Shown here piece after piece: positions 13,324 to 52,032 of a DNA stretch of 64,000 nucleotides. Each line of letters opens with the position of its first letter. The stretch's first letter is position 1. The notes under the pieces are model-generated. The model was not told the origin of the DNA. It saw nothing but the letters and a program-made list of their open reading frames with translations, and did not search any database. The position numbers and the translations under genes are program-made. Origin of the DNA: an uncultured Verrucomicrobiota bacterium (GTDB taxonomy: Bacteria > Verrucomicrobiota > Verrucomicrobiia > Opitutales > Opitutaceae); assembly GCA_913058185.1 (NCBI GenBank), contig CAJXQX010000012.1, forward strand, positions 1 to 64,000, written 5' to 3'.

Positions 13324-13436
13324 GTAGGGACGGACCGCTGGGCCGTCCGTCCTGCCTCTCAGTCCGCGTTCGATGCGATCGGCACTCTACAAGCTGTCGC
13401 CATCACTCTGCGGACGGCCCGGCGGTCCGTACCTAC
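13324..13436. repeat. Inverted pair of GTAG-headed REP-like palindromes (BIME-like)
   Basis: GTAGGGACGGACCGCTGGGCCGTCC (+) and, on the minus strand, GTAGGTACGGACCGCCGGGCCGTCCG; ~60-bp spacer. Confidence 0.75.
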
Positions 13437-13437
13437 C

Positions 13438-14535
13438 TCAATCCCTTGGTAGATCTAGAAGATTAGGATCGAGTTCAACCATCCCAATTCCGGCAGCGGG
13501 CTGGGGCAAGGTGTCCTCGGGGTAGCGTTGCTGATGGTCATGCACCGTTGCGCGGCCATTATAGTAGAGTAGAACTTTGCCTTTCCACACCACCGGCGGG
13601 GCGGCAATATGCACCATGCCGCAGTCGAACCGCCCGCGCTCACCCAACGGGACCAACGGAGCGCGATCGAGCTCCCGTTGCCAAGTCCAGCCGTCGGCAC
13701 TGCTCATGAGCTGCACATCCATCGTTTGGTCGCCGGTGTGGTGGATATTCATCAGCCCATAGTAACCGGTTTGAGAGTGGAACGGCACAAACCAGTAAAA
13801 CTGCAGGTCGGGCGCATCGGCATCGTCGGGCACCATCACTTGAGTCGGCCCCACCCACTGAGTAGGAAATTCGTTAACGGTCCAGATGGAGATCACCCGT
13901 TGCATGAAATCGAGATTGTCCCGATCGACCGGCAGGTCGGGATCGTAGCGCCACGTTTGTTGATAGAGTAGAATCGAACTCTCCCGGGCGCCGGCGGCGG
14001 CACGTGGATTGGGGAGTCCAAATGATCCCGCATCGTTGGCGTTCATGATGACCGGCCGTTCGAGCACGGGTGCCCAGGCCAAACCATCGACACTGCCCGC
14101 GAAATGAAACCCGGGTGGGAGCGCGGGGTCGCGCCGTCCCCAAAATAGCAGCTTCCAACGCCAGGCTGGGTTGGGTTCCGTGGGATCGTAAGCGATCGAT
14201 TGGCAATGAAATGTCCCCCAGTTCATGGCGTTACCGGCCGATCGCATGACGATGTTGTCGCCGTCTCCCAGATCAGGTTTCTCCCAATTAATTCCGTCCT
14301 TCGAGTAGGCGACGCATAGAATGTTACGGGTGCCTTCGCCGCTAAAGCGAACCATGTAATACAGGCGTAATCGGTCTTCCTCAGGATCGGGAATCACGCC
14401 AATCACTGAGCTGCCCGAACCAGCGACTTCCCAGGGTTGATCCAAAACCATCAATGGAGCTTCGGTGCGGAATCTGATATGCCCTTCGGCTACCGCGATG
14501 ACAGGGAGGAGCAGAATGAGGAGTAGTCGATTCAT
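13438..14535 (-). CDS. Secreted hypothetical protein, possible five-bladed propeller glycosidase-like fold (GH32/43-like)
   Basis: 365 aa, signal peptide; SKDGINWEKPDLG, SVDGLAWAPVLERPVI, SSADGWTWQRELDRAPLVPLG-type repeats. Confidence 0.65.
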   Translation of the reverse strand: MNRLLLILLLPVIAVAEGHIRFRTEAPLMVLDQPWEVAGSGSSVIGVIPDPEEDRLRLYYMVRFSGEGTRNILCVAYSKDGINWEKPDLGDGDNIVMRSAGNAMNWGTFHCQSIAYDPTEPNPAWRWKLLFWGRRDPALPPGFHFAGSVDGLAWAPVLERPVIMNANDAGSFGLPNPRAAAGARESSILLYQQTWRYDPDLPVDRDNLDFMQRVISIWTVNEFPTQWVGPTQVMVPDDADAPDLQFYWFVPFHSQTGYYGLMNIHHTGDQTMDVQLMSSADGWTWQRELDRAPLVPLGERGRFDCGMVHIAAPPVVWKGKVLLYYNGRATVHDHQQRYPEDTLPQPAAGIGMVELDPNLLDLPRD

Positions 14536-14755
14536 CGTGCTGTCATCATCGAGTGAGGGAAGTCGGATTCCGAGGGTAATTGTTTTGGCCGAACCGTCGT
14601 CGATGGATGCTGATAGGGGACCTGCACCCCCTAAATGATTCGAATCCGGTATTGGCCAATTGAGTCGGTCCGGCTCACCTTTATTTTCTCGATCGCGACC
14701 ATTGATTCAAATTCGCCTCGGTCACCTTTTACTTGGCATCGCTTAACCCCGCCGA

Positions 14756-15865
14756 ATGTGCTCTACCGTAATCCCCATGCTTTCTTTTTTACCGCAAACT
14801 CTCTTTCGCAGAAACGTGTTCGTTTCGTCGATTTCAGTTTCCCCGTTCCGGTTAGTTGCCCTTTTATTGGGTTTTCCAGTTATGGCGCACGCTAACCCCT
14901 TAGTCTACTCCGCCGCTGAGCCGGCCAATGGCAAAAAACTGGTTCTGATTGCGAGTGATCACGAGTATCGCGCCGAAGAAACGATTCCTGCGCTGGCGCG
15001 GATCCTAGCGAAACATCACGGCTTCGAAACTACGGTTTTGTTCGGGCTCAACGCAGAGGGCGAAATTGAAGCCGGAGCCTCCAACGTTCCCGGTTTGGAG
15101 GCGTTGGCGGATGCGGATGGACTGGTGATTTTTACGCGGTTCCTCGCGTTGCCGCCGGAGCAGATGAAACACATCGATGCCTATCTCAATCGAGCCGGAC
15201 CGGTCGTGGGACTGCGCACATCGACTCACGGATTCAATTATCCAAAAGATCGAACAGACGACCCATTCTACAAGTATCACTTTCGTTATGAAGGCGAAGA
15301 CTACAGGGGTGGGTTTGGTCATCAAGTATTAGGCCAGTCGTGGGTCGGTCATTACGGCAAAAACCATCAGCAAAGCACGCGGATTACGCTGATACCCGCC
15401 AAGGCTAGTCATCCGATTCTACGGGGAGTTTCTCAGGTGCATGTCCACGCTGGAGGTTACAACGCGGAGCCCGCGGGTGATTGGAATATTCTGACCATGG
15501 CCCAGCCCCTCCTGACTATGCTACCCGACGGTTCTCCCGATCCGGAGAAACCGCCCATGGCGAGTGAGTGGACGAGAACCTACCAAGGCCAAGACGGCAA
15601 AACTGGTCGCGTCTTCGCTTCACTCTATGGCGCGTCCGAAGACATTTTGAATCCGGGTTATCGGCGGCTGATCCTCAACGGTATCTATTGGTCGATGGGG
15701 ATAGAGGATCAAATTCGATCCGATTCCGACATCGCGTTTATCGGACCCTATGAACCGAATACCTTTGGCCAACGTCGTGAAGCCAAAGGGGTGCTGCCCT
15801 CCGCTTACGAAGGGCTCGCGACCCCCATTCCGGCTAACCATAATACGGCGAAGCCGGAAAAGTAG
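14756..15865 (+). CDS. ThuA-like domain secreted protein
   Basis: KLVLIASDHEYRAEETIPALARILAKHHGFETTVLF..., HPILRGV motifs; start codon uncertain (14777 also possible). Confidence 0.8.
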   Translation: MCSTVIPMLSFLPQTLFRRNVFVSSISVSPFRLVALLLGFPVMAHANPLVYSAAEPANGKKLVLIASDHEYRAEETIPALARILAKHHGFETTVLFGLNAEGEIEAGASNVPGLEALADADGLVIFTRFLALPPEQMKHIDAYLNRAGPVVGLRTSTHGFNYPKDRTDDPFYKYHFRYEGEDYRGGFGHQVLGQSWVGHYGKNHQQSTRITLIPAKASHPILRGVSQVHVHAGGYNAEPAGDWNILTMAQPLLTMLPDGSPDPEKPPMASEWTRTYQGQDGKTGRVFASLYGASEDILNPGYRRLILNGIYWSMGIEDQIRSDSDIAFIGPYEPNTFGQRREAKGVLPSAYEGLATPIPANHNTAKPEK

Positions 15866-15880
15866 ATTTGCGGAAATGCT

Positions 15881-15903
15881 GTAGCCGGGCTCGCTGAGCC
15901 CGG
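15881..15903 (+). repeat. Solitary GTAG-headed REP-like palindrome
   Basis: GTAG + CCGGGCTC-GCT-GAGCCCGG (perfect 8-bp stem). Confidence 0.65.
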
Positions 15904-15939
15904 GAATGCGGTTAGATGGTGGACCTGCGTGAGCTTGGT

Positions 15940-17469
15940 CTAGCGCTTAACCGAGTAACCTTGGTCGCGATACTCTTGGAGGAGGGCCGCCATCGTTGCG
16001 ATCCGGTCCGGGTATTTATCGCTAAGATTTTTCCGCTGACCGAGATCGGCCTCCAAATCGAAGAGTAGCACGTCGGTGTCGAAGTCCTCGTAACCACGCA
16101 GGGCCTTGAACGAGTCGGGCATCTTGCTGTGCTCTCCATCGGGCTGATTGATGAAGAGCCACCTACCCTGACGCAGTCCCCAGGTGTCGGCGTTGGTATT
16201 GTGCACGGTGGCTTCGCGAAGAGGCGTGAGCAAAGAAGCACCTTCGGAGACGGCGAGAAAGTCGTAGCTGTCGGGAGCAGAATCTTGGGGGAGATCGGAT
16301 CCGGTGACCGCGGCAATCGTCGCCATGATGTCAACTTGGGAAATTACTTCGTTGGAGACCGAATGATCGGGCACCCGTCCGGGCCATTTGATGATAAATG
16401 GGACATGGTGACCACCTTCCCAAACGTCGCGCTTGAGCCCGCGAAGCTCGCCCATGCTGAAGTGCCCGTAATTTTCGGCGCGTTCGAACGCATACTTTTC
16501 CGGACCGTTGTCAGCGGTGAAGATAACGAGGGTGTTCTCCGCGAGTCCTTTATCTTCCAAAGCTTGTAGAACTTGGCCGGCAACCCAATCGGATTGATGG
16601 ACGAAATCACCATACGCTCCGGCACCGGATTTGCCGACGAACTCTTCATTTGGAATGATCGGCGCGTGCGGTGAAGGCAGAGGGAAGTAGAGGAAGAATG
16701 GTTGATCGGCCTCCTGTTGGTGAACCCACTCCACGGCCTTCTTGGTTAGGGTCGGTAGCACATCGTATGGATTCCAACCTTCGACCATCGGCCCCGGACG
16801 GAACTCCCAATTTCCCTCCAGCGTGTTGTAGGGCATGTCTTTGATATTTACTTCGCTGGTGGGGTTCTCAGTCAGTCGATCGTTCTCCACCCATGCGTAG
16901 GGAGGGAAATTGATCGTGCCGTCGCCGAAGTAGGTGTCGAAGCCGCGATCGAGTGGGCCGCCGGTTACGGGGACACTCCAATCGACGTCCTCCGGCAGAT
17001 AGTATTCGCGCACTTGGTTTCGTTGTTCGAAGCGGCCGGTGGGCTCATTTTTGAATGTCCAGTTCCAACCCAGATGCCACTTACCGATGGCGGCGGTGTG
17101 GTAGCCCGCATCCTTCAGCATTTGAGGTAGGGTGTAGTCGGTGTCGCGGAAGAACGATGGGGGGCCAAAGGACTGCACAATGCCGTGTTGCCGTCGCCAG
17201 TGATAGGTGCCGGTGAGTAGAGCGAAACGACTGGGCGAGCAGATACCGGATGAGCTGTGAGCATCGGTGAAGCGCATGCCTTCCCGGGCGAGTTGATCCA
17301 GGTGTGGGGTCGGGATTTTAGAGTCCGGATTCTGGATGTTCAGATCCCCGTAGCCCATATCGTCGGCGTAGATGATTACGATGTTGGGGCGATCGGCCGC
17401 GGCGGACCAAAGGCAGGTGGCACTCGCTAGGATGAATAGAGAGGTGAGAAGGCGAAGTGGGCGTTTCAT
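15940..17469 (-). CDS. Secreted type I sulfatase (arylsulfatase)
   Basis: [28 protein letters not shown] (CxPSR), GKWHLG, FTADNGP. Confidence 0.95.
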
Positions 17470-17504
17470 AGAGGTAAAATAGGGGCGCTGTCGGGCATTT
17501 CGCT

Positions 17505-17571
17505 GTCGGACATAAAGCCCGACCCACCCAGCAGTCCGCGGCTCAAAGTGGGTCGGGCTTTCTTGCCCGCC
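17505..17571. repeat. Inverted pair of GTGGGTCGGGCTTT-headed palindromes (second REP-like type)
   Basis: Minus copy GTGGGTCGGGCTTTATGTCCGAC (17527-17505); plus copy GTGGGTCGGGCTTTCTTGCCCGCC (17548-17571). Confidence 0.65.
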
Positions 17572-17635
17572 ATAGCTTCAGCGCAAGAGGGATACCCGAC
17601 ATGTTGCGGCTGATTGTCAGTTTTCCGGAGTCTAT

Positions 17636-18343
17636 CTAACGCGGAGTAATCTTGAGGTTTCTAGCGTGCGCGATGGTTGAACCCTCAAACCAGATGGCGA
17701 CGGATCCACTGGCGTCTTCGCCCGACTTGACGTCGTTCACTATCAAAGTGGGTTGCTCCCGATCGTCGATGAAGAGACGCGCTTTGGCGCCATCAACTTC
17801 AAGGCGCACGTGAATCCAGGTCGCTGGAGTGATATCCACGTAGGACTCGTAGCGGGACGGTGTTTCCGTGCGCAGTTTTCGCCAAGGGAAGTCGGGATGT
17901 GACATGTATTGGACCGTGTGATTACGACGTTCCTGATCCTCGGCGCGACCATTGGTGGGGCGCAGATAAAAACAGTCGTAGGTTTCGCGGTCTTCTTGCA
18001 CCCGGAATGCGACGCCAACGAATCCGCGGGCACCCCCGGTTGCTCCTGGGCTGGGTTGGCCGGCGAGATCCACCTCGATGGTGCCGTTAGTGAACTCCAA
18101 TCCTTCCACGAGGGCCAAATGGTCCAGTCTTTGTTGGTCCGAGGCGGGAGGGGTGGAGGAGGATATTTGAAGGGCGGAGTGTCCTTTGAACTTCACCGAC
18201 TCTCCGTCAGCGTTGTGGAGGATCAGACCGTCTGAGGACTTGAGATCGAGTGATTTGGCGTGGGCGGAGCCAAATGAAAGTAGAAGCACAGCGCAGGAGA
18301 GCGCTGCGCCGCCGTGGCGGAATAAGCGTGGCAGATGGGGCAT
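17636..18343 (-). CDS. Secreted concanavalin-like/DUF1080-related protein
   Basis: 235 aa, signal peptide; LEFTNGTIEVDLAGQPS...GFVGVAFRVQEDRETYDCFYLRPTNGRA...WIHVRLEVDGAKARLFIDD. Confidence 0.65.
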   Translation of the reverse strand: MPHLPRLFRHGGAALSCAVLLLSFGSAHAKSLDLKSSDGLILHNADGESVKFKGHSALQISSSTPPASDQQRLDHLALVEGLEFTNGTIEVDLAGQPSPGATGGARGFVGVAFRVQEDRETYDCFYLRPTNGRAEDQERRNHTVQYMSHPDFPWRKLRTETPSRYESYVDITPATWIHVRLEVDGAKARLFIDDREQPTLIVNDVKSGEDASGSVAIWFEGSTIAHARNLKITPR

Positions 18344-18378
18344 AGGGAGGAGGGGTATATGGGGTTGCGGGGTGTCCT

Positions 18379-20127
18379 TTACTCGAGACTCTGCGTCGAC
18401 TGGCGTTCGTAGAGAGTGCGGTAGAGAGGATTATCGGCCATGAGCTCGGTGTGGGTGCCCTGAGCGGCAATGCGACCCTTGTCGAAAACGAGGATCATCG
18501 AAGCATCGCGAATGGTGCTGAAACGATGGGCGATAATGAGCACGGTCTTGCCCACCACGAGCTTGCGCAGGGCCTTCTGAATGGCGGCTTCGCTTTCGCT
18601 GTCGAGGGCACTGGTGGCTTCATCGAGAATCAGAATCGGGGCGTCGCGGAGGAAGGCACGGGCGAGAGCAAGACGCTGGCGTTGACCGCCGGAAAGCGAG
18701 GCTCCGCGTTCGCCCACGACGGTCTCGTAACCTTCGGGGAGGGACTGAATGAATTCGTGGGCGTAGGCGGCTTCAGCGGCATGCTCAACTTCCTGCCGGG
18801 TAGCACCGGGCCGACTGACCAAGAGGTTGTTGAAGACGGTATCGTCGAAGAGCACTGATTCCTGGGACACGATACCGATCTGTTGGCGCAGGTCGGCGAG
18901 GGTTACGTCACGGATATCCACTTGATCGATTTTTACGCTGCCGGTGGCGGCTTCGTAGAAACGGGGCACGAGATTGGCGAAGGTCGACTTGCCCGCACCG
19001 CTGGGGCCGACCAGCGCACAGACGGTTCCAGCGGGTATGTGCACGTTGATGTCCTGCAAAACGGGCTCACCTTCACGGTATGCGAATGAAACTTTATCGA
19101 AAGTGAGGTTGCCTTCGACTTTTTCGAAGGGCTTGGGCTCGGCCGGATCGGTGATGGCGACAGGCTCGTTGAGCACCATCTCAATACGTTCCAGGGCGGC
19201 TTGCCCTTTCTTCATCTCGTTGTTGATGCCTCCGAGTTTTTTGATCGGTTCGTAGCTCAAGTAGAGCGCGGTGATGAGAGACAAGAAAGACTCCAACGGC
19301 ACCTGCACGCGGTAGGCGTAGATCAGGGTGATCGAGATACCGATGGCGGAGATGATCTCGATGGCCGGGTTGAGGGCCTGCTGGTATTTGACCACCTTCA
19401 TCTGAAAACGGACGAGGGATTGGCTGATGATCCCAAACTTCTTAACTTCGCGATCTTCCAGGCTGAACGCACGGACTTCGCGGGCAGTCGCGAGGTTTTC
19501 GCTGAAACGTCCGGTGATTGATCCGAGTTCAGCCTGCACTTCCTGGGCGCGGCGAACGATTTTTTTGCCCACAAATCGGATGGGCAAAACACAGAGTGGC
19601 ACCACAGCCAAACACACGAGGACGAGGGCGACACCCCGTTCGTTCATGGCGACCCAGACTAGGAAACCGAGGGCTCCCAATAACGTGGCGGGCTGCCGAA
19701 TGATCTCGTTGGCGGAGAATGTGAGCGTGAATTGAAGCTGGTTAGTATCGGCCAATCCGCGGGAGATCAGATCACCACTGGATTGGCGCTGGAGAAAAGA
19801 GAGGGGCAGGCGTTGCAGTTTGGCGAAGAAGTCGAGACGGATGCGTTCGAGCACCTTCACTCCGGCAAGTTGCACGAGATAGACGTTGCCATAGCCGGCG
19901 ACGCCGCGGACGAGGAAAATCAAGGGCAACCAAGCGGCAATGAGAGCGAGCTGCCAATTGGTGAGAACTTCAGCCTCGGCCGCGAAGATCTGTGGAAACA
20001 CCCACTTCATCATGAGGGGCAAGCCGGCACCATTGGCGGCGCCATAGACCAACCCACACAAGAGCGCTGCAATCAGCGTGCCCTTGACGGGTCTAAGGTA
20101 GCCGAAAAATGGACGAAAGCGGTTCAT
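18379..20127 (-). CDS. MsbA-type ABC transporter (fused permease/ATP-binding)
   Basis: 582 aa; Walker A GPSGAGKST, LSGGQRQRLALARAFL, ILDEATSALD, IAHRFSTI. Confidence 0.93.
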   Translation of the reverse strand: MNRFRPFFGYLRPVKGTLIAALLCGLVYGAANGAGLPLMMKWVFPQIFAAEAEVLTNWQLALIAAWLPLIFLVRGVAGYGNVYLVQLAGVKVLERIRLDFFAKLQRLPLSFLQRQSSGDLISRGLADTNQLQFTLTFSANEIIRQPATLLGALGFLVWVAMNERGVALVLVCLAVVPLCVLPIRFVGKKIVRRAQEVQAELGSITGRFSENLATAREVRAFSLEDREVKKFGIISQSLVRFQMKVVKYQQALNPAIEIISAIGISITLIYAYRVQVPLESFLSLITALYLSYEPIKKLGGINNEMKKGQAALERIEMVLNEPVAITDPAEPKPFEKVEGNLTFDKVSFAYREGEPVLQDINVHIPAGTVCALVGPSGAGKSTFANLVPRFYEAATGSVKIDQVDIRDVTLADLRQQIGIVSQESVLFDDTVFNNLLVSRPGATRQEVEHAAEAAYAHEFIQSLPEGYETVVGERGASLSGGQRQRLALARAFLRDAPILILDEATSALDSESEAAIQKALRKLVVGKTVLIIAHRFSTIRDASMILVFDKGRIAAQGTHTELMADNPLYRTLYERQSTQSLE

Positions 20128-20543
20128 CTTCGAGGATGGATCACCGCAATAGAGTGACGGCTATTCTTTCGATAGTGGAAGAAGTCTGAGTCGACCGTAA
20201 GAACTTTTGCATCAGGCATAAGTTCACTCATCCTTACCACACAGGCATCGGCAAGAGACATGGGCGTGTCGTGATATTTCTTTAACATTTTCGATACGGC
20301 ATTGAATTGAGACTTTAGATCGAAATCGAAGGTAACGATCTGATCTTCCACTAAGCCAGAGAGTTGGCCGAACCCGGGATCGATTTTTCTCAATAGGTAT
20401 GCGCATTCGGCAAAGACCGCCTCGTAAATGAAAAGGGGATCATGAATTTTAGCCAGCTCAGTGACCGCCCACGCATGATCTTGATCATGGCGATTGAGCA
20501 AGGCAACGAGAGGGCCGGTATCAGCGATTAAGGCTTTCGCCAT
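20124..20543 (-). CDS. PIN-domain ribonuclease toxin (VapC-like)
   Basis: Re-started at MAKALIADTGPLVALLNRHDQDH; acidic PIN residues (IADTGPLVAL.., FAECAYLLRK, SLADACVVRM, VLTVDSDF). Confidence 0.88.
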   Translation of the reverse strand: MAKALIADTGPLVALLNRHDQDHAWAVTELAKIHDPLFIYEAVFAECAYLLRKIDPGFGQLSGLVEDQIVTFDFDLKSQFNAVSKMLKKYHDTPMSLADACVVRMSELMPDAKVLTVDSDFFHYRKNSRHSIAVIHPRR

Positions 20544-20769
20544 AACCTTCCATATCCTTGGACAGAGCCGATAAGTTCTCCGGTCCTTCAAGCGAACCAA
20601 TGAGATGGGCTGCGCGCTCGGCGAGAGAAGGACGGGATGATGTTTCGGAGCTTTCCAATAGGTCGAAGGCCTCGCGCAGAACTGCCGATTGGGAGGTGTG
20701 GCGTCGTCGAGCGGACGCTTTCAACCGAGCGTGATCACCGGGCGACATTTTTATTGTTACCGTTGGCAT
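20521..20769 (-). CDS. Ribbon-helix-helix (CopG/VapB-like) antitoxin
   Basis: MPTVTIKMSPGDHARLKASARRRHTSQSAVLREAFDLLES; overlaps PIN start by 23 bp. Confidence 0.8.
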   Translation of the reverse strand: MPTVTIKMSPGDHARLKASARRRHTSQSAVLREAFDLLESSETSSRPSLAERAAHLIGSLEGPENLSALSKDMEGYGESLNR

Positions 20770-20848
20770 TCTTCGAGGTATTACCAAATTGGAGATTCGT
20801 CAATACCGTGATTTGCGGACCGCTGCGCACCCACCTAGATGAACGCGC

Positions 20849-21766
20849 TCAATCCTTCGACGATCGCACATCGAGAGCGTCGCGGAGGCCGTCGCCGAGG
20901 AAGTTGAGTGAGAAGAGAGTCAGGGAGAACACCACACCGGGGAACATGAGTAACCAGGGGTATTCTTCCATCTTCTCGGCTCCGTCCTTGATGAGCACAC
21001 CCCACGAACTGAGGGGAGGCTGCACGCCGAGTCCGAGGAAGCTTAAAAATGCTTCCAACAACATAACCGCCGGGATAGTGAGGGTGGTATAAACGATGAT
21101 CGGCCCGAGGATGTTGGGGATCATGTGGCGGAAAATAATCCGCCGTTTGCCGAGACCAATCGACCGCGCTGCTTCGATGAACTCCATCTTCTTCAGCGAC
21201 ATGATTTGTCCGCGCACGATCCGGGACATGGTCAGCCATTCGACCGCGCCGATGGCGAGGAAGAGCAACCAGATGTCACGACCGAAAAAGACCATCAACA
21301 GGATCACGAAAATCGTGAAAGGCAGGGCATACATGATGTCGACGATGCGCATCATGAGGGAATCGATCTTACCGCCGAAGAATCCCGCGACCGCACCGTA
21401 GACCACGCCGATAGTCAGCGCCACGAAAGTGGCACATAGACCCACGCCGATCGAAATACGACCGCCAACCAACAGACGCACGAGGAGGTCACGTCCGAGT
21501 TGATCGGTGCCCAACCAATGGGCGCCGCTCGGAGGCGAGAAGGTGTTATTGAGGTTATTGTCCTCGTAGCCGTAGGGACTGAGCCATGGGCCGACGATAC
21601 ACGCGATCGCGAGGACGATCAGCACCGTGCCGCCAAAGACGGCGAGCTTGTTCTTGGCGAGGCGATGCCACGCATCTTTCCAAAGGGAAGTGCCTTGTTC
21701 GAGATCTTCCGGAAGCGGAATACCGGACGGAAGTCGATCTGCGGAGGAGGAGAGTGAGACAGACAT
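20849..21766 (-). CDS. oppC: Oligopeptide/dipeptide ABC transporter permease, OppC-type
   Basis: 305 aa; GTDQLGRDLLVRLLVGGRISIGVG, ..RHMIPNILGPIIVYTTLTIPAVMLLEAFLSFLGLG. Confidence 0.9.
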   Translation of the reverse strand: MSVSLSSSADRLPSGIPLPEDLEQGTSLWKDAWHRLAKNKLAVFGGTVLIVLAIACIVGPWLSPYGYEDNNLNNTFSPPSGAHWLGTDQLGRDLLVRLLVGGRISIGVGLCATFVALTIGVVYGAVAGFFGGKIDSLMMRIVDIMYALPFTIFVILLMVFFGRDIWLLFLAIGAVEWLTMSRIVRGQIMSLKKMEFIEAARSIGLGKRRIIFRHMIPNILGPIIVYTTLTIPAVMLLEAFLSFLGLGVQPPLSSWGVLIKDGAEKMEEYPWLLMFPGVVFSLTLFSLNFLGDGLRDALDVRSSKD

Positions 21767-21772
21767 GGCGGC

Positions 21773-22690
21773 TTAATCGAATTTAAGTTTCGGGTTCAGC
21801 CACACCTGCACCACGTCAACGACGAGATTAAGGACAATGATGAGGCTCGCGTAGAGAATGACGGTGCCGAGCACCAACGTGTAGTCGCGGTTGAAGGCGC
21901 TATTAACGAATTCGCGCCCGAGACCGGGGATTTGGAAAATCGTCTCGATCACGAATGATCCGGTAAGAATACCAGCGATAGCCGGACCGAGGAATGAGAC
22001 GACGGGGAGCAGGCCACCTTTCAGGGCGTGGCGGAAAATCACGCGAAACTCACTCGCCCCTTTGGCGCGGGCCGTGCGGATGTAGTCTTGATTGAGGATC
22101 TCCAGCATGCCGCCCCGGGTGAGACGCGCGACGTAGGCCGAGTAAACCAGACCGAGGGTCGCAGCCGGGAGGACCCGGTCGTAGCTGGTATACCAGCCAG
22201 AGGCGTTGAACCAGCCGAGGTGGATGGCGAAGACGAGGACAAGTATCGGGCCGAGCACGAATGTCGGTATACAGATACCGGTCATCGCGATCGACGACGA
22301 GACGTAGTCCAACCACGTGTTTCGTTTTATGGCGGCGATGACGCCGAGCGTGATACCGAAGACCAAGGCCACGGCGAGCGAGGTTAGGCCCAGCTCGAGT
22401 GATACGGGCAGTTTGTCGGCGATAATTTCGTTTACCGTGCGATTCGGGTATTTGAATGACGGACCGAGGTCTCCCTTCATCAAACTACCGAGATAGTCGA
22501 AGTATTGCTGGTATAGCGGCTTATCCAGACCGTAATGCGCTTCGAGGTTGGCCTTAATCTCGGGGCTAACAGCCTTTTCCGAGGTGAAGGGGCCTCCGGG
22601 CACAAACCGGATCATGAAGAAAGTCGCCGTGATGATGATCAGCAGGACTGGAATGGTCTCTAGCAGTCGACGGGCGATGAATCGAAACAT
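21773..22690 (-). CDS. oppB: Oligopeptide/dipeptide ABC transporter permease, OppB-type
   Basis: Re-started at MFRFIARRLLETIPVLLIIITATFFMIRFVPGGPF; ..TARAKGASEFRVIFRHALKGGLLPVVSFLG. Confidence 0.92.
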   Translation of the reverse strand: MFRFIARRLLETIPVLLIIITATFFMIRFVPGGPFTSEKAVSPEIKANLEAHYGLDKPLYQQYFDYLGSLMKGDLGPSFKYPNRTVNEIIADKLPVSLELGLTSLAVALVFGITLGVIAAIKRNTWLDYVSSSIAMTGICIPTFVLGPILVLVFAIHLGWFNASGWYTSYDRVLPAATLGLVYSAYVARLTRGGMLEILNQDYIRTARAKGASEFRVIFRHALKGGLLPVVSFLGPAIAGILTGSFVIETIFQIPGLGREFVNSAFNRDYTLVLGTVILYASLIIVLNLVVDVVQVWLNPKLKFD

Positions 22691-22819
22691 AAGTGGAGGG
22701 GAAACGTGGGATGCCTGCTCGCAACAAGAACGAGAGACGGGGGGAGATCTTGCGCTCCTCGCGGGCTCACAAAAGCACAAAAACCGTCATTTCGGCACAA
22801 TCTATACGATTCTTTCGGA

Positions 22820-26767: not shown

Positions 26768-26880
26768 GTAGGGACGGACCGCCGGGCCGTCCGCGTATGG
26801 CAAGGTGCCCTGGGTGGCTGGGGTGGTGTCTTATCAATCGGCCAAGCAGTGCTCGGCGCGCCCAGCGGTCACGCCCTGCC
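26768..26880. repeat. Inverted pair of GTAG/GCAG-headed REP-like palindromes
   Basis: GTAGGGACGGACCGCCGGGCCGTCC (+) and minus-strand GCAGGGCGTGACCGCTGGGCGCGCC. Confidence 0.7.
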
Positions 26881-43241: not shown

Positions 43242-44117
43242 ATGAGGCCAGCATGGCCATGCGCCGGACTACTCCTTCTTTCGCTAATCTTTCAAACCGG
43301 ATGCACTCTCTTGGATGCGGCCAAGACTTTCACGGCGCCAGTAACCTCGGCGGCCTCGATGATCGGAGCCGGGAGTAAGGCTGCGGCAAAATCTGTGGGT
43401 TCTGCGGTCGGCGCGATCGGATCTACTTCTGCTGCCGTCGACAAAACTACCGGTAGTGCTGCGATGGGCACAGGCCGGGTGGCGGTATCGGGAGTTCGCA
43501 CGGTATCTCGTGTTTCTGCCTCTTCGATGGGGGAGGGTGGTTCCGTTTCAAGCGGGGCTGTTAGCGGCACGGGCTCTCTGGCCGGAGGCACGATGCGGGC
43601 GACTGGATCCGTGGGAGGGGCAACGATCGGGACTTCGGGATCCGTCACCCGTAGTGCGGTCGGGGGAGGAGGCCGCGTGGCTCGATCGGTAGTGAGTGGC
43701 GGGACGCGCGTTCCGGTATCCTCGATCCGCATTTCGGGTTCAATTGTGGACAGTGCCATCCGCGGAGGCGGGACGGTGGCTCGATCCACCATCAGAAGCG
43801 GAACCCGAGTATCGGCGACAACGGTTCGTGCCACGGGAAACCTGACGGCTTCCACCATCAATAATTTGTCCCGTATGTCTCGGGCTGGTTTAATCACTTT
43901 TATCGATACGTCGGGCGGCAAGGTGGTGCGCGTGCCGTGGCGTGCGGGCCTCAATGTTTATGGCGGAAGTGCGTTGGCGAATTTGCAAACAGTTGAACGG
44001 GCTTTGGCGATTATCCGCGGCGGCCGATTGGTTTACCAAACAGTCCGCGCGCTGGCGGACGCCCGAGGTTTTCAATTGGAACCCGGTGATGTGCTGCGTT
44101 TGGCCAACCGCGGTTAG
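43242..44117 (+). CDS. Lipoprotein with 11-residue tandem repeats (unknown function)
   Basis: Re-started at MRPAWPCAGLLLLSLIFQTGC (lipobox FQTGC); ~13 consecutive 11-aa units followed by a unique C-terminal domain. Confidence 0.75.
   Translation: MRPAWPCAGLLLLSLIFQTGCTLLDAAKTFTAPVTSAASMIGAGSKAAAKSVGSAVGAIGSTSAAVDKTTGSAAMGTGRVAVSGVRTVSRVSASSMGEGGSVSSGAVSGTGSLAGGTMRATGSVGGATIGTSGSVTRSAVGGGGRVARSVVSGGTRVPVSSIRISGSIVDSAIRGGGTVARSTIRSGTRVSATTVRATGNLTASTINNLSRMSRAGLITFIDTSGGKVVRVPWRAGLNVYGGSALANLQTVERALAIIRGGRLVYQTVRALADARGFQLEPGDVLRLANRG
43473..43901 (+). repeat. 33-bp (11-codon) tandem repeat array within lipoprotein gene
   Basis: GRVAVSGVRTV/SRVSASSMGEG/GSVSSGAVSGT/GSLAGGTMRAT/GSVGGATIGTS/GSVTRSAVGGG/GRVARSVVSGG/TRVPVSSIRIS/GSIVDSAIRGG/GTVARSTIRSG/TRVSATTVRAT/GNLTASTINNL/SRMSRAGLITF. 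Confidence 0.85.
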
Positions 44118-44137
44118 TTGAATCGGACCGATTTACT

Positions 44138-44932
44138 CTAATTTCCGTCGGCTAACTTGAGTTTCCACCCGGTCCCGGTGCGACGTAAACGGACCGACCT
44201 CTCGAAGGCTTGGGAAAGCCGAGCGGACGTGAGCTCATCCTGCAACGAGCCCGCGGCCAAACGTTTCCCTCGGGAAAGCAGCAGCAGATTGGTGAACCCC
44301 GGAGTGATCTCTTCCACGTGATGGGTCACGAGAATGATGGTGGGCCCATTGGGGTCTTGTGTCAGTGCCTCCATCGCCACCAAAAAATCAGCCCGGGCTA
44401 CGGGATCAAGTCCGGCGCAGGGCTCATCTAGGATGAGGGCCTGGGGGGAGGCGGCGAGGGCACGCGCGATGAGCACGCGTTGGCGTTCGCCTTGCGAGAG
44501 GTAAGCCCACTCACGATTGATGATCTCTTTGGCGTTGAGTTGCGTGAGCAGTCGACGGGCCAGTCGCTGATCGGCGGGGGTGGCTTCACCCCAGAAATCG
44601 AGTTGATCGTAGATGCCACTGATCACGGTTTCGATGGCCGGCTCGCCTCCCGGGATGTGGGGTTGCAGGGAAGATGATACCATGGCGATGGCGCGGCGCA
44701 CCTCGCGCCAGTCGCATTCCCCGTAGGTTTGCCCCAATAATTTAATGTTGCCCGACGTGGGCGTGAGGAAGCCCGTGAGGCTGCGCAGGAGGGACGTTTT
44801 ACCGCAACCGTTGGGTCCCATGATCACCCAGTGTTCTCCGGCATGGACGATCCAATCGAGTTGATTGAGCAGAGTTTTTGGGCCGCGCCTCAGAGTGAGC
44901 GCATCAACATCGAGGAGCGTATCAGTCGGCAT
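44138..44932 (-). CDS. ABC transporter ATP-binding protein
   Basis: Walker A GPNGCGKTS, LSQGERQRVLIARAL, LILDEPCAGLD, VTHHVEEI; re-started at MPTDTLLDVDALTLRRG. Confidence 0.9.
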   Translation of the reverse strand: MPTDTLLDVDALTLRRGPKTLLNQLDWIVHAGEHWVIMGPNGCGKTSLLRSLTGFLTPTSGNIKLLGQTYGECDWREVRRAIAMVSSSLQPHIPGGEPAIETVISGIYDQLDFWGEATPADQRLARRLLTQLNAKEIINREWAYLSQGERQRVLIARALAASPQALILDEPCAGLDPVARADFLVAMEALTQDPNGPTIILVTHHVEEITPGFTNLLLLSRGKRLAAGSLQDELTSARLSQAFERSVRLRRTGTGWKLKLADGN

Positions 44933-46615
44933 CGTAAACTTCGATGAGGCCGACACCCATGCCATCGTTGATGCCGGAGAGTTGAACCGTGTAGGCACCG
45001 GGGGTGAGATTCACGAGCATACCGTGTCGAGGCTGCTGTTCGGTAGGTCAAATGCGCCCACGCGCTGGGCGGTGGCGAGGAGGGTGGCACTATCCCAATT
45101 GTCGTTGGTCTGGACTTGGGTTGAGGTGCCATCTACGGAGCGGAATAGGGTGAGTTGCGGATCGGCGATTGAGCCGTTTACCCCGAAGTTTCCGAGAGTC
45201 GGTCCGACGCCCCGAATGAGAAGGTTTTTGGTTCCAGTGCCGCCGATAACGAAACCCGCTACGAGCACTTCGGCTCCGGTGCCGACCTGCGAACGAGCCG
45301 AGATATTTGTGAGCCGCGGTCCCGTGGGAGTGGTTGGGAAAGCGGTGTCGTAGATTTCAGCCAGGGCAATTCCAGTCGCACCGTTGTTGCCGGTGACTTT
45401 AACGGTATAAGATGCGGATGTAAGCGTGGCGACCAGGGCGGCATCGAGACTGTTGTCGGGCAGCGCAAAGGCGCCGACCGTTTGAAAGATACTCGAGATT
45501 GAAGTGTCCCAATTGTCGTTAGATTGGGTCTCCGTCGTGCCGGAGAACAGGCCGAGGGTAGGATCGGAGATCGAGCCGTTGACCCCAAAATCACCAAGAG
45601 TAGGACCCACGCCGCGGATCAGCAGAGACTTGTCGCCTCCGCTGATGGCGAAACCGGCAATGAGAGTTTGCGCGTCACTGCCGGCGTTGTTGCGCACGGA
45701 GATGTTGGTCAGGTAAGCAAACTCGGTAGGAGTGGTCTCTTCAAATTCATACCCCAGATCCTTAAGGATACCGAGTTCGATTTGACTTAGTGTGCGCACT
45801 CCCGGTCCTGTATCGGAGGCCGAATTCATGAGTAATGCCAACGCATCGACGTAAGTTGGGTCGTCGGTATGGCTGGCGCTACTGCCGTCTTCCCAAGGGG
45901 TGGGTGAATAGATTACGACGGGTTGGCCATTGTTAGCCGCGAGAGCGTTAGTGCCGTTAAAAAAGAGACTGGAGCCACCAGCCAGAGCGCCCAGCTCGGC
46001 GGGGCGAAACTGAAATTGCTCATCGATCACGCGGGTGCCGGAATTATTTACGAGGAACTTATCGAAAGGGGCCCAAGCATCGGGAGTCCCCGAAGTCTCT
46101 TCGAAATAACCGGTGCCGTTGGAGGCAATCGCTCCGCTAAACCCGATAGCGTGCAAAATCTCGTGCATGGCCGTGCTGACGAAGTCGAAAGAATCGGGGC
46201 CGATATCATTGTCCAAATCCCAGTCATGGAATAAATTCCAGGTTATTTCACCATCGGCATCGTCCCCGTTTCCGTCGGTGCCATTGAGGACTTTCTTGTG
46301 AGCGATCGACGGGGTAAACCCATTGTCCAAGCTGACAATCCCACTCCCTGCGCTGGCCAACGTATCATTATCCGTCGTGTTGGAATTGACGTCGAAGGTG
46401 ATGGTCACGGCGCGACCGATCGGCAGCTGTTGCGAGAGGGATTGCCCGGCTGATTCCAATGCGCTGCGACGGGTAGCTCCTTGGGTCGGGTCGTTGAATC
46501 CGGCGCCGCTATCTTTGAAGTTGAACTGGAATGCGAGCTGAGCGTTTGCGGTCGAAAGCAGCCCGAGAGCTGAAACGGCCCCGATCAATATCAGGCGATT
46601 AAGGTGTTTTTTCAT
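44922..46615 (-). pseudogene. Secreted metzincin-like metalloprotease with two C-terminal modules, frameshifted near its 3' end
   Basis: HEILHAIGF (HExxHxxGF); two ~130-aa modules. Frame 1 ends ..NSSLDTVCS* at 45011, but another frame continues MLVNLTPGAYTVQLSGINDGMGVGLIEVYDAD* to 44922. Confidence 0.8.
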
Positions 46616-46758
46616 GAGAGGTTGAAGCGGATGGGATACCAAAAACCATAGGGAGTGGGAGCGGAGGGGGGCGAGCGGGAATCATGCGATCAAGCGAAGT
46701 AATGCCCAATTACGCTAATCGACTGGCTTCGTGGCGAATCTCACATGAATATTTAGCC

Positions 46759-48264
46759 ATGCTGGACCGCATATCTGTCCTCGGCGCATTGTTCGCCATT
46801 CTATCCCTACCGTTGTGGAGCGCGCGTCCCTTCACGGTCGCGGTCTACAATGTTGAGAACCTGCACGATGCCGATGGCGTGGCGGTTTACGACGATTACC
46901 AACCGGATGTTTATACTCCAGCGCACGTTGCCACTAAGGCCACCAATGCGGCCAAAATTCTCCAGAAGTTCCGCGGCGGGGAAGGTCCAGATATTATCCT
47001 ACTGCAAGAAATTGAAATTGATCAGACACCGGACTCTCGGGTGGATGATATCGATGCTTTTATGGCAAAGTGGCGCGGGTCAGATTTAAAAACCCTGCTC
47101 GGCCAATCGCCGTTACCGGCTGAGTTAGCGGGCGTGCCAGCGGAAGTTTGGTTGTTGAAGGCATTGGCGGATGTCGGGCTCACGGGTTATGAAATGGCGG
47201 TAGGATCGGATGCCCCTTCACCTCCGCCGACAAAATCAGGTCGGGCGATTAAATGCGTGACGTTATCGAAGTTCCCGATCGTCGCCACGCGCCAGCATTC
47301 CATCACATCGGCGCGCATGATTCTTGAGACCGAAATCGAGATCGATGGGGCGCGCGTTTATGTATTCAACAACCACTGGAAGTCCGGGGCGGGCACCACT
47401 TCAATGGAGCGGATCAGGGTTCAAAATGCGGAGGTTTTACGCGACCGGCTCGACGTCATTTTTGCAGAAGACCCTCTCGCTGATGTGATTATTGGAGGGG
47501 ATTTAAATTCACAGTATAACCAAAAACTACGTTATCCTAAAATGCCCCGCACCGGCGTGGATGATGTTTTACGGGTGGGATACAGTGAGTCGGAATTACG
47601 CCGTGGAGATATCGATCTCCACAACTTATGGTATGAGCTGGAGGAGCCTAATAGGGGGAGCGATGTCTATCGGGGAGAATGGGGCACGTTAATGCACCTC
47701 ATCGTTTCTCGTGGTCTACACAACTGGTCGGGCATTCAGTATCAGGATAACTCATTCAAGGTGGCTCGGGTGCCGGGTTTGAACGCCGATATTGCCGGTG
47801 CCCCGATTCGGTGGAGCAGTGGTGGTTCGAACGGCTCGGGGTTCTCTGACCACTTGCCAATTTACGCGCATTTTCGCTCCGTGGACCAGGGGTTGGCTGA
47901 TAAATGGATGCCAGTTGAAAACCCTGCGGATACACCGGCGAGCACGGAGGTTTGGCGGGTGGATTATGCGGCGGCTGATTTGAACGGGGCGTTGCGGTTG
48001 GATGCATTGCCCAAAGGCACGGATTTAAGGGACGGCAGCTGGACGGGGAAACTGTTCAGGGTGAACGGTGCGGCGATTGGGGCGCGAAACCCGAAGGTGC
48101 GATTTGGTGGCGCGGTCTACGGTGTATATGCTTCCCCGCCCGCGGCAAAGGATCTACTCGAAGCCCAAGCGGTCCGCAGTCGGGCGCTGAGCTTTTATGG
48201 CGAACTCGGCACCTATAAAGGTGATTGGCAGTTCGTGGTTCGCGATGTGAGTTGGGTGCAATGA
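46759..48264 (+). CDS. Secreted endonuclease/exonuclease/phosphatase family protein
   Basis: FTVAVYNVENLHDADG, ILLQEIE, VYVFNNHWKSGAG, DVIIGGDLNSQY, SDHLPIYAHF; start moved from 46684. Confidence 0.88.
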   Translation: MLDRISVLGALFAILSLPLWSARPFTVAVYNVENLHDADGVAVYDDYQPDVYTPAHVATKATNAAKILQKFRGGEGPDIILLQEIEIDQTPDSRVDDIDAFMAKWRGSDLKTLLGQSPLPAELAGVPAEVWLLKALADVGLTGYEMAVGSDAPSPPPTKSGRAIKCVTLSKFPIVATRQHSITSARMILETEIEIDGARVYVFNNHWKSGAGTTSMERIRVQNAEVLRDRLDVIFAEDPLADVIIGGDLNSQYNQKLRYPKMPRTGVDDVLRVGYSESELRRGDIDLHNLWYELEEPNRGSDVYRGEWGTLMHLIVSRGLHNWSGIQYQDNSFKVARVPGLNADIAGAPIRWSSGGSNGSGFSDHLPIYAHFRSVDQGLADKWMPVENPADTPASTEVWRVDYAAADLNGALRLDALPKGTDLRDGSWTGKLFRVNGAAIGARNPKVRFGGAVYGVYASPPAAKDLLEAQAVRSRALSFYGELGTYKGDWQFVVRDVSWVQ

Positions 48265-48620
48265 AACCACTCGTTGTTTACACTTATAAGAAATGTAGCA
48301 CTTGCCGCAAGGCGGTGAAATGGCTCGAAGCCGAGGGAATCGCGTTCCAAGAAAAACCGATCCGCGAAACGCCGCCAACCAAAGCTGAGCTGAAACGCAT
48401 GCTCGCGACACAGGAGGGCAACTTGAAGAAGCTCTTTAATACGTCCGGCGGCGACTACCGAGAAATGAAATTAGGTCCAAAACTGGATGCGACGCCAATC
48501 GCCGAGGTATTTGAACTGCTCAGCACTAACGGCAATCTGGTGAAGCGCCCGTTCGCGCTGGGCGCAGATACCGGACTGGTCGGGTTTAAGGAAGAGATTT
48601 GGGCGGCCGCACTAACCTGA
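48261..48620 (+). CDS. ArsC/Spx-family thioredoxin-fold protein
   Basis: MKPLVVYTYKKCSTCRKAVKWLEAEGIAF; ATGA overlap with previous gene. Confidence 0.88.
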   Translation: MKPLVVYTYKKCSTCRKAVKWLEAEGIAFQEKPIRETPPTKAELKRMLATQEGNLKKLFNTSGGDYREMKLGPKLDATPIAEVFELLSTNGNLVKRPFALGADTGLVGFKEEIWAAALT

Positions 48621-48637
48621 CCTGAACACGCGACAGG

Positions 48638-48743
48638 GTAGGGCGGTCTCGCCGAGACCGCCGGTTTCATCGTGATGGACGGGCTGGCGGTTCTGTCTGG
48701 GGAAGCCATTCCACTGCGGCGCGCTAGGCGATCACGCCCTCCC
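48638..48743. repeat. Inverted pair of GTAG/GGAG-headed REP-like palindromes
   Basis: GTAG + GGCGGTCTC-GCC-GAGACCGCC (perfect) and minus-strand GGAGGGCGTGATCGCCTAGCGCGCC. Confidence 0.7.
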
Positions 48744-48788
48744 TTCGGAGGTATTGCGTCGGTCTAGCGTGGTCCCGGTTCTGGTTGG

Positions 48789-49307
48789 CTACTTCTCGGC
48801 GGGCACAAATTTAAGCGCCACCCCATTCATGCAGTAGCGCAATCCGGTTGGCCGGGGGCCGTCGGTGAAGAGGTGGCCCAGATGACTTTTACAGCGCGCG
48901 CACACGTTTTCGGTGCGATTCCAGCCAAACTTGTTGTCCGGCACGTCGAGCACGTGGCCTCCTTTGATCGGTTGCCAAAAGCTGGGCCACCCGGTGCCGG
49001 ATTCGTATTTAGTTTTGGCATCAAAAAGAGGGAGTTCACAAGCGGCACAAACGAAGATGCCCGGACGCTTTTCCTTAAGTAATTTGCTCGTTCCCGAGCG
49101 TTCCGTGCCAGCCTCGCGCAATACGTGAAACTGTTCACGAGTGAGCTCTGCCTGCCATTCGGCGACGGATTTCTGCACGGGTTGGATGTCGGGGGCAGGC
49201 TCGGTGGTCGGTTGAACATTATCAGCCCGGGCGGAACAACCGGCGGCGGTTAGCAATCCAGTGATGAGGCAAAGTGAGGCTAAAATTCGCATAGGGTTGT
49301 GAGCCAA
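48789..49307 (-). CDS. msrB: Peptide-methionine (R)-S-oxide reductase
   Basis: GIFVCAACELPLFDAKTKYESGTGWPSFWQPI, RTENVCARCKSHLGHLFTDGPRPTGLRYCMNGVALKF. Confidence 0.95.
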   Translation of the reverse strand: MAHNPMRILASLCLITGLLTAAGCSARADNVQPTTEPAPDIQPVQKSVAEWQAELTREQFHVLREAGTERSGTSKLLKEKRPGIFVCAACELPLFDAKTKYESGTGWPSFWQPIKGGHVLDVPDNKFGWNRTENVCARCKSHLGHLFTDGPRPTGLRYCMNGVALKFVPAEK

Positions 49308-49408
49308 CTAAAGCCGAATTTATTCCAAGGTCAAATTGCCTCGATCACTGCGGGGCGATTGCTCTCGTTCGCTTGGACTAAGTCGGACTCACTAAAGCCA
49401 AGAAAATC

Positions 49409-50572
49409 ATGAGAAACTGCTTACTACCCCGTCCGAATCCGACCCTCGGATTGTTCCTTCTAGTTGCCCTAGGCATCTCGGTCGTTGCTCAGCCCCGACC
49501 AATACCCCCAATCCGAGCACCGGATGTTCCGGGCGCGCCACGGTTTCAGATCGCAGGGGCCAAACGCGGGAGCAACGAACTGCAGGGCAAAGCGGGTGTG
49601 AGCCTTCCGCGTCATGCGATGGGTGATTGGCTGGTTGGCCCGGAATATATCCCTGCACCCGAACTTGAAATGGTGGTCGGAGTTCCGCAGGGGAGAATCG
49701 TGCAGTTCGTGATGAATTCTGCTGACAGCGCGTTTTATAATGGAATCGCCCGGAAGGAGAAAGGGACGGTCGATCCGCACAATGCGCGGACATTGATCGT
49801 CAATACATTTTCGCAGCCTTATACCCGACTCGTCACGGTGTATGTGCCTAGTCAATACGTTGAGGGCACCGCGATTCCATTTATCGTGCATCATGATGGC
49901 CCCAAGAAGCCAGGAGGTGCCGAGACGCATATGTTACCCCGGGTTTTGAATAATCTGATCCACCAGCAGCGCGTGCCGCCGATGGTGGCGATCTTGATCG
50001 CGAATGGTGGCGGCGATGCTCAGGGCAGCCAACGCGGATTGGAGTATGATACGATGTCCGGCAAGTTTGCGGAGTTCATCCAGGCCGAAGTATTACCGCA
50101 GGTGGAACGGGAGGCCGGAGTTCGGTTGACGGATGATCCGGAAGGCCGAGCGACGATGGGTAACAGTTCTGGTGGTGCTGCGGCGTTCACTATGGCCTGG
50201 TATCATCCGGAGTGGTATCGGCGGGTGATCAGTTTTTCGGGCACCTACGTTAACCAGCAATGGCCCTTTGATTCGATCACCCCGGGTGGTGCGTGGGATT
50301 TTCATGAATCATTGATTCCGAACAGTCCTCGGAAGCCGATTCGGCTGTGGATGCACGTGAGTGATCGCGACAACTTCAATCCGAATACGATGCGCGATGA
50401 CATGCATGATTGGGTGGAAGAAAATCACCGGATGGCGGCTGCGTTGAAAGCCAAGAATTATCCTTACTTCTACGTTTTTTCGGTCGATTCACGTCACGGC
50501 GACAAGCGCGTGCGCGAACAGATGTTGCCCCATGCCCTCGAGTGGATTTGGCACGATTACCCGAAAGAGTAG
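49409..50572 (+). CDS. Secreted esterase (enterochelin esterase/D-family esterase-like)
   Basis: VTVYVPSQYVEGTAIPFIVHHDG, ATMGNSSGGAAAFTMAWYHPEWYRRVISFSG, DSRHGDK. Confidence 0.85.
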   Translation: MRNCLLPRPNPTLGLFLLVALGISVVAQPRPIPPIRAPDVPGAPRFQIAGAKRGSNELQGKAGVSLPRHAMGDWLVGPEYIPAPELEMVVGVPQGRIVQFVMNSADSAFYNGIARKEKGTVDPHNARTLIVNTFSQPYTRLVTVYVPSQYVEGTAIPFIVHHDGPKKPGGAETHMLPRVLNNLIHQQRVPPMVAILIANGGGDAQGSQRGLEYDTMSGKFAEFIQAEVLPQVEREAGVRLTDDPEGRATMGNSSGGAAAFTMAWYHPEWYRRVISFSGTYVNQQWPFDSITPGGAWDFHESLIPNSPRKPIRLWMHVSDRDNFNPNTMRDDMHDWVEENHRMAAALKAKNYPYFYVFSVDSRHGDKRVREQMLPHALEWIWHDYPKE

Positions 50573-50576
50573 CGGG

Positions 50577-51833
50577 CTAGTCGACGATTGCCTGCCACGC
50601 CGTATTGGCAAAATACGGCATCAGGGATGAGGCCATCGGGGTGTGTTGGGCGAAAATCATGGCGATGAATTCCTCCTCGGGGTCGATCCGATACCAGGTG
50701 GAATAAGCGCCGCCCCAACCGTAGCTACCAACACTGCTCATGTCCTTTTCGTAGAAGGTATCAGTTTTTACCGACCCTCCAAAACCGTAAGCCTCCGAAC
50801 GGTTGTTTGATTTCACCTTGTCACCCAGAAATCCGGTTTGGTTTCGCATCATCGATTGGACGGTCTTTTTGCCCAATATCGAACGACCTTCAAAAGTGCC
50901 TTGATCGAGTAACATTTGGGCGAATCGATAATAGTCTGAAGCGGTGGAATAGAGGCCTCCACCTCCTGCGGGAAATCCTCTTCTCATGTCGCCCTGTTTT
51001 ACCTGACCCTCGACGTAAGCCAGTTCTCCATTACGACGGGTAAACATCTGCACCAAGCGATCCCGTTTTTCGGCCGGGACTTCGAAAAACGTATCCTTCA
51101 TTCCGAGGGGTTTAAACAGATGGTGTTCCAGAAAGGTTTGGAGGTCAGTGCCGCTCACGCGTTCGATCAACGCGCCTAATACATCGATGGAGGGGCCATA
51201 AGTATAGGCCGTGCCGGGATCATCCTGCAGGGGTAATTTGGCCAGGTTTTTCACGAACTCCTTGAGGGAGTTCGCTTCGCGGTAGGCACTCTGGGTGTAG
51301 ATGCGATCAAGGGAAGATTGACCCCGGTTGCCCGCCCATCCCGCGGTGTGGGTGAGGAGGTGACGAATCAGGATGGGAGACTTGGCTGGGCGAGTCTGAA
51401 TTTCGTCGCCCGTGCCACTGAGATAAACCGGACGCTTCTCGAGTTCAGGGAGGAATCGGGAAATGGGATCCGACAATCTGACGTGACCTTGTTCGACCAA
51501 TACCATGGTCCCGGCTGAAACGATGGTTTTAGTCATCGAGGCGAGCGCGAAAATCGCATCCTTTTCCATGGGGATACCGGCGAGTTTGTCCTTATAACCG
51601 TAGGTCCGGAAATCCACGACCTTGCCGTGGCGAGCAATCAACGTGATGGCGCCAGTGAGCGGGTAGGACTTAACCGAATCCTCGACGAAGCGGTGCATGG
51701 TTTGCAGCCGTTCGGACGAGACCCCTACCTCTTCCGGTGTTGCGTGAGGTGATTCGCCGCTACTCACGCTGGGCACGAAACCAACCCAAGCTACCAATAT
51801 CGCTAGTGATAAACGTTTAAAGGAACACGTCAT
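50577..51833 (-). CDS. Serine hydrolase (class C beta-lactamase family)
   Basis: FALASMTKTIVSAGTMVLVEQG (SxxK), LLTHTAGW, YTYGPSIDVLGALIE. Confidence 0.92.
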   Translation of the reverse strand: MTCSFKRLSLAILVAWVGFVPSVSSGESPHATPEEVGVSSERLQTMHRFVEDSVKSYPLTGAITLIARHGKVVDFRTYGYKDKLAGIPMEKDAIFALASMTKTIVSAGTMVLVEQGHVRLSDPISRFLPELEKRPVYLSGTGDEIQTRPAKSPILIRHLLTHTAGWAGNRGQSSLDRIYTQSAYREANSLKEFVKNLAKLPLQDDPGTAYTYGPSIDVLGALIERVSGTDLQTFLEHHLFKPLGMKDTFFEVPAEKRDRLVQMFTRRNGELAYVEGQVKQGDMRRGFPAGGGGLYSTASDYYRFAQMLLDQGTFEGRSILGKKTVQSMMRNQTGFLGDKVKSNNRSEAYGFGGSVKTDTFYEKDMSSVGSYGWGGAYSTWYRIDPEEEFIAMIFAQHTPMASSLMPYFANTAWQAIVD

Positions 51834-51910
51834 GACGTAGTGAATTGCGCTGCTGAGATCGGAGCAACGAAAGATATAGCTCCCAAGGTTACGTTGCTGG
51901 ATGCAGGAAG

Positions 51911-52032
51911 GTAGGGCGTGATCGCCGGGCGCGCCTTCCGGTGGAGTGATTCTGCAAGGGAGGATGGAACCGGCGGTTTGCTACGCCATCTCCGTCCTTC
52001 ATAGAAGGACTCCGTCAGCGAAACGGCCCTAC
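51911..52032. repeat. Inverted pair of GTAG-headed REP-like palindromes
   Basis: GTAGGGCGTGATCGCCGGGCGCGCC (+) and minus-strand GTAGGGCCGTTTCGCTGACGGAGTCC. Confidence 0.65.

Follow-up and report, generated by a model that had tools for sequence, protein, structure and literature searches.

GTAG-headed intergenic hairpins in an Opitutaceae genome are very probably REP elements associated with a RAYT transposase

What are the GC-rich hairpins that recur between genes in a 64,000-nucleotide stretch of DNA from an uncultured Opitutaceae bacterium? The stretch (positions 1 to 64,000 of contig CAJXQX010000012.1, assembly GCA_913058185.1; hereafter the window) had been interpreted from its letters, and this sequence-only reading listed seven loci with hairpins of the repetitive extragenic palindromic (REP) type, attributed to a REP-associated tyrosine transposase (RAYT). 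We followed up this proposal in the genome under study (G000; 4.09 Mb in 159 contigs, completeness 99.18%) and in other genomes, which are numbered G001, G002, G003, G005, and G007; L-numbers denote sequence loci. The hairpins are very probably REP elements, non-autonomous partners of a RAYT (TnpAREP) transposase of the HUH/Y1 type, arranged mostly as inverted pairs (bacterial interspersed mosaic elements, BIMEs, or REP doublets forming hairpins, REPINs), with one RAYT, of the A/C type, and with families B and E lacking a matching RAYT in this assembly. Genuine repeat families accounted for six of the seven loci. The exception was locus 4521, of which no second copy was found in 938 kb, and which lies outside the range 13324-52032 under which the seven had been listed.

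First, copies of the hairpins were counted genome-wide. The strict pattern GTAGGGNNNNNNCGCYNRGC gave 97 matches in 4.09 Mb, compared with 0 for the reversed control. R1, a covariance model trained on 41 different copies from the same genome, found at least 150 A, B, or C matches, a census that is a lower bound with 150 candidates scored. Family D (GTAGCCGGG…; pattern GTAGCCGGGSTCGCYGASCCCGG), which includes locus 15881, had 19 strict copies (reversed control 0), and the GTGG-headed family E, which includes locus 17505, had 75 copies at no more than two mismatches (control 0). Locus 17505 had also been considered as a lone long-loop terminator, and this candidate was dropped, as the locus is an inward-headed GTGG pair of this 75-copy family. 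The data showed that at least five subfamilies, A, B and C (all three GTAGGG…), D, and E, coexist in the genome; the coexistence of several cores had been recognized from the window, and the number given there, at least two, is raised accordingly. For closer study, 137 A/B/C copies in 75 clusters were collected from the 538 kb around the matches plus the window, each assigned to its nearest consensus.

The GTAG head was present in 127 of these 137 copies. Because the regions were fetched with a GTAG-containing pattern that skips subfamily C, the C cores provide the cleanest test of the head, and all 16 of the 16 C cores carried GTAG. In a head-free search of family D, GTAG predominated, GTAA and TTAG each heading one copy, and the head of family E was GTGG in 13 of 16 copies. 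The apex was CCGCYGG in B, family D shared TCGCYGA with the A/C type, and the loop of E was TTTAY. Standard pairs occupied 92.7% of the cells of the hairpin stem, and pairing fell to 36-42% when the partner was slid by 1-3 columns. Covariation was also observed: in 74 cells both partners had changed, in comparison with 24.7 in shuffles. The stems of A and B contained a wobble or mismatch, and those of C and E were perfect.

Of 62 adjacencies between A/B/C hairpins, 61 were inverted (P about 1e-17 if both orientations were equally likely); 48 were convergent, 13 divergent, and 1 tandem. Pairing was specific to type: there were 32 A-C pairs (21 heads-out and 11 heads-in) and 21 B-B pairs, all heads-out, together with five mixed A-B pairs. 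The linkers of B were divergent and also long, reaching 140 nt. In family E, a -/+ layout with the heads inside was found in 24 of 24 adjacent pairs genome-wide, so the inverted pairing proposed from the window holds for both groups. All 137 A/B/C copies were intergenic, compared with a null mean of 21.7 and a maximum of 33 in 200 trials, which bears out the intergenic enrichment expected by the sequence-only reading; for family E, 13 of 16 copies were intergenic. Clusters between convergent genes made up 44 of 71, in comparison with 50 of 338 gene pairs overall (Fisher P = 2.5e-15), and no cluster (0 of 71) lay between divergent genes, in comparison with 47 of 338 pairs.

A RAYT gene flanked by the same hairpins was present in this genome, as had been anticipated. 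It encodes 153 amino acids and lies on contig C68 (G000:C68:21252-21713, equal to L006 1378-1839), with A(-) at 1265 and C(+) at 1297 upstream and A(-) at 1883 downstream (L006 positions). The protein scored 94.8 bits against NCBIfam NF047646, the REP-associated tyrosine transposase model (cut-off 80), and 27.9 bits against Pfam Y1_Tnp (cut-off 23), whereas its score against the IS200 model was under that model's cut-off. Its sole sequence match in the PDB was 4ER8 TnpArep (E = 6.6e-8), the E. coli enzyme (PMC6006769). Alignment to 4ER8 and 96 relatives identified the HUH motif as H62-L63-H64, the Y---NP signature as Y115 and N119-P120, and W94, Q95, D100, H101, and R104 as the guide-contact residues of PMC6006769 and PMC8266576; the numbers are those of a 138-residue query and match the E. 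coli numbering at the guide residues in the 4ER8 alignment. These catalytic and guide residues were conserved in 96-100% of the 96 relatives, except for the middle residue of HUH, which was L in 85%. The genome contained six Y1_Tnp genes, one of them the RAYT. None of the three outcomes that the sequence-only reading had named as refuting it (few copies, no GTAG enrichment, no RAYT-type gene) was observed, and the RAYT-REP system with several subfamilies proposed earlier is supported with one refinement: only the A/C type has its own RAYT in the assembly. The end of contig C68, just past the downstream REP (L006 1899-1930), reads CTGTCTCTTATACACATCTCCGAGCCCACGAG, which we take to be Nextera adapter and probably assembly contamination.

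The association of RAYT and hairpin was also investigated in other genomes. When 84,980 species genomes were scanned, 118 relatives of the C68 RAYT emerged; 80 loci were retained, and almost all of them bore the label Verrucomicrobia, Kiritimatiellae, or Lentisphaerae. A GTAG hairpin lay within 350 bp of the RAYT at 77 of 96 loci. Among 543 hairpins near RAYT genes the head was GTAG in 220 and the next commonest head occurred 13 times, which confirms the predicted enrichment of GTAG over other tetranucleotides. GTAG hairpins numbered 220 per 66 kb near RAYT genes and 54 per 540 kb far from them, about 33 times rarer per base. Across 73 loci, hairpin distance was correlated with RAYT distance (Mantel r = 0.476, reached in 0 of 5000 permutations, highest 0.159), a value uncorrected for shared descent of hairpin and RAYT, shared descent being itself what co-inheritance predicts. 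The RAYT of G001 (L148) was likewise flanked by A and C hairpins. B-type apexes accompanied a distinct RAYT group in other genera (for example, L072/L149), and, within the same genus, E-type hairpins stood on both sides of the G002 RAYT (L161) and adjoined a truncated G005 RAYT (L167). Two decayed RAYTs of the same genus, L159 (G007:C36) and L238 (G001:C1:4356535), had two in-frame stops each. At RAYT positions 94-97, WQRD was present in 86 of 96 sequences, mostly GTAG-flanked, and WQSG or WQPG in the GTGG-associated L156 (G003), L161 (G002), and L167 (G005). The idea that residues 96-97 set GTAG or GTGG met exceptions (DG and RG with GTAG) and is only a hint.

Several results weigh against the REP-RAYT interpretation or narrow it. 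B-type and E-type cognate RAYTs were not found in this assembly. The regions scanned in detail were picked through GTAG matches, and the gene calls came from a purpose-written simple codon-score caller, not a standard annotation program. A 400-kb sample, with three of its stretches placed between known matches, was left out of any density estimate. G005 has about 80% DNA identity around 13324. It lacks the pairs at 13324 and 48638, together with the block that contains the 51911 pair and the preceding gene. However, G005 retains GTAGGGAC at the 13324 site, so a deletion there is as plausible as an insertion here. A clean empty site or target could not be defined at the orthologous sites of G005, where the intergenic sequence is too diverged. 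Transposition was not seen, and we infer it for these REPs. In addition, six A-C pairs shared a 23-nt linker, and the flanks of a larger repeat were shared as well. This repeat, of about 290 bp with inverted ends (GTGATGCAGAACA... / ...GTTCTGCATCA, outer TGTCGGGCATAAAG), encloses an A-C REP pair; it occurs at L023 2733-3026, with copies in L223, L030 (two), L040, L017, L010, and L014, and it looks like a miniature inverted-repeat transposable element (MITE) with a nested REPIN. The six pairs therefore spread at least partly with the repeat, and not every pair moved by itself.

The orphan status of families B and E is the part of the interpretation with the strongest competitor. RAYTs of both types exist in relatives, and we infer that they were lost from this genome. 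Differences from the mode averaged 1.51 in B and 1.50 in A, so decay has gone no further in B than in A. Possible explanations are loss of the RAYT, mobilisation of these families by the A/C RAYT, and a gene that the 159-contig assembly fails to include. That B and E are not orphans at all, either because the single A/C-type RAYT mobilises every family or because the missing RAYTs were left unassembled, competes with the orphan part alone and deserves tentative consideration. The B copies stand as near to their own mode as the A copies do, mixed A-B pairs exist, and the assembly is split into many contigs. On the other side, RAYT sequence and REP apex co-vary in other genomes, where a separate RAYT group accompanies the B-type apexes; TnpAREP groups are reported as co-evolved with their own REPs (PMC8266576); and genome completeness is high. 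It seems unlikely, though worth stating, that B and E persist in good condition after losing their own RAYTs, through one RAYT serving a different apex or head or through host selection, with REPINs also carried passively in the ~290-bp repeat.

A different explanation would make the hairpins Rho-independent terminators or other 3' RNA hairpins, selected for transcription ending or mRNA stability and without a mobile history. It agrees with their position, since the A/B/C copies all lie between genes, usually close to the 3' end of a gene (median distance 57 bp) and preferentially between convergent genes, and with stems kept through compensatory changes. However, a T-tract (at least 5 T in the 8 bases past the hairpin) was found in only 7 of 137 copies, and the conserved unpaired GTAG head, the near-identical copies at unrelated sites, the inverted pairs, and the RAYT with the same hairpins are not features of terminators. 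As T-tracts are rare, this was rejected as the main explanation and is very improbable, in line with the earlier statement that the hairpins are not simple terminators; a terminator function as a secondary role is possible. That the hairpins are terminal inverted repeats of MITEs moved by an ordinary DDE transposase, as the carriage of some A-C pairs by the ~290-bp repeat might suggest, is scarcely credible, because most pairs lie outside that repeat among those compared, the basic unit, which also occurs alone, is one hairpin with its head, and the associated gene encodes a Y1/HUH transposase.

TnpAREP of E. coli suggests, by analogy, a mechanism for the REP-RAYT system. Recognition by the RAYT would involve the stem and apex of the folded single strand together with the GTAG guide on the 5' side of the stem, and the RAYT would cleave and rejoin close to the recognised hairpin. 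An inverted pair would be copied as one unit, presumably by a single-strand route, and selection would leave copies solely downstream of genes. The C68 RAYT belongs to the A/C type and probably serves D too, which shares the TCGCYGA apex.

The hairpins of the window are listed in Table 1. Inverted GTAG pairs matching the R1 model were present at four loci (13324, 26768, 48638, and 51911), and the B(+)/B(-) pair at 13324-13436 folds as a single long hairpin (z = -6.5). The long-loop C variant measures 62 nt, its loop containing a further hairpin, and four copies were found in 938 kb: the window copy, L017 3838, L048 4098, and L223 4807. Comparable forms with long loops have been reported in other GTAG families.

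Table 1. Positions, strands, and support of the hairpins in the window
Feature	Position	Strand	Support
GTAG plus 9-bp hairpin, repeat-family membership unsupported	4521..4546	+	folds
REP, subfamily B (GTAG GGACGGACC GCT GGGCCGTCC)	13324..13348	+	R1 41.7 bits
REP, subfamily B, inverted partner (GTAGGTACGGACCGCCGGGCCGTCC)	13412..13436	-	R1 32.1 bits
REP, family D (GTAG CCGGGCTC GCT GAGCCCGG)	15881..15903	+	19 strict genome copies, reversed control 0
REP, GTGG-headed family E	17505..17527	-	75 genome copies at <=2 mismatches, control 0
REP, GTGG-headed family E partner, heads inside, degenerate (GTGGGTCGGGCTTTCTTGCCCGCC)	17548..17571	+	sequence; same -/+ layout in 24/24 adjacent genome E pairs
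REP, subfamily B	26768..26792	+	R1 41.8 bits
REP, B-like, GCAG head (GCAGGGCGTGACCGCTGGGCGCGCC)	26855..26879	-	R1 40.1 bits
REP, subfamily C (GTAG GGCGGTCTC GCC GAGACCGCC)	48638..48662	+	R1 45.7 bits
REP, subfamily A (A-like), GGAG head, inverted partner of 48638 C	48718..48742	-	R1 25.6 bits
REP, subfamily A (GTAGGGCGTGATCGCCGGGCGCGCC)	51911..51935	+	R1 35.9 bits
REP, subfamily C long-loop variant, inverted partner of 51911 A	51971..52032	-	R1 16.1 bits over 51971-52034

The system is a further example of a known REP/RAYT kind, already described in the same bacterial family (PMC3733652). Opitutus terrae is highly enriched in GTAG REPs, with coexisting families, dimers, RAYTs, and a location on the 3' side of genes (Di Nocera et al. 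2013, PMC3733652). The hairpins studied here share with that GTAG superfamily the GTAG (or GTGG) head, stems of 6-13 bp, loops mostly of 2-4 nt, compensatory subfamilies and coexisting families, head-head and tail-tail dimers (A-C corresponding to heterodimers and B-B to homodimers), and sites between convergent or co-directional genes. This comparison is by shared features; the published families include GTAG-17/19/20 (PMC3733652). In contrast, intragenic copies are common in O. terrae (PMC3733652), and there were none among the A/B/C copies here. The transposase agrees with RAYT/TnpAREP (REPtron), class 2 of the TnpAY1 family, in its HUH and Y---NP motifs, in W94, Q95, and R104, and in being flanked by cognate hairpins, and its D100 is as reported for TnpAY1 subclasses 2.5 and 2.7 (PMC6006769; PMC8266576). 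With REPINs/BIMEs (Bertels and Rainey 2011, PMC3116915) the hairpins share the layout of two inverted REPs and a linker, mostly with the heads outside, whereas the E pairs and 11 A-C pairs here are heads-in and the B linkers are both divergent and long.

TIRYT elements, with GGGGWSAS ends (PMC3733652), are a separate family, and the Y1 genes L001-L003, with GGGGTCAG inverted ends, fit this group; no GGGGTCAG-type ends were found around the Y1 genes L004 and L005. The window itself contains, at 62624-62775, three copies of GGGGTCAGGTCGCAAAA, inverted and direct, which are TIRYT-type element ends (GGGGWSAS motif). In the own-genome loci read there were 22 GGGGTCAGG sites, some counted twice through overlapping loci.

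These data add a well-populated REP/RAYT system in the Opitutaceae. GTAG is fixed across 73 RAYT loci of Verrucomicrobiota and neighbouring phyla, in which the hairpin apex co-varies with the sequence of the transposase. It is mildly notable that the assembly contains no cognate RAYT for B or E, although B is in as good a condition as A. With families that have a resident RAYT and families that do not, the genus can be used to ask what keeps REPs after transposase loss.

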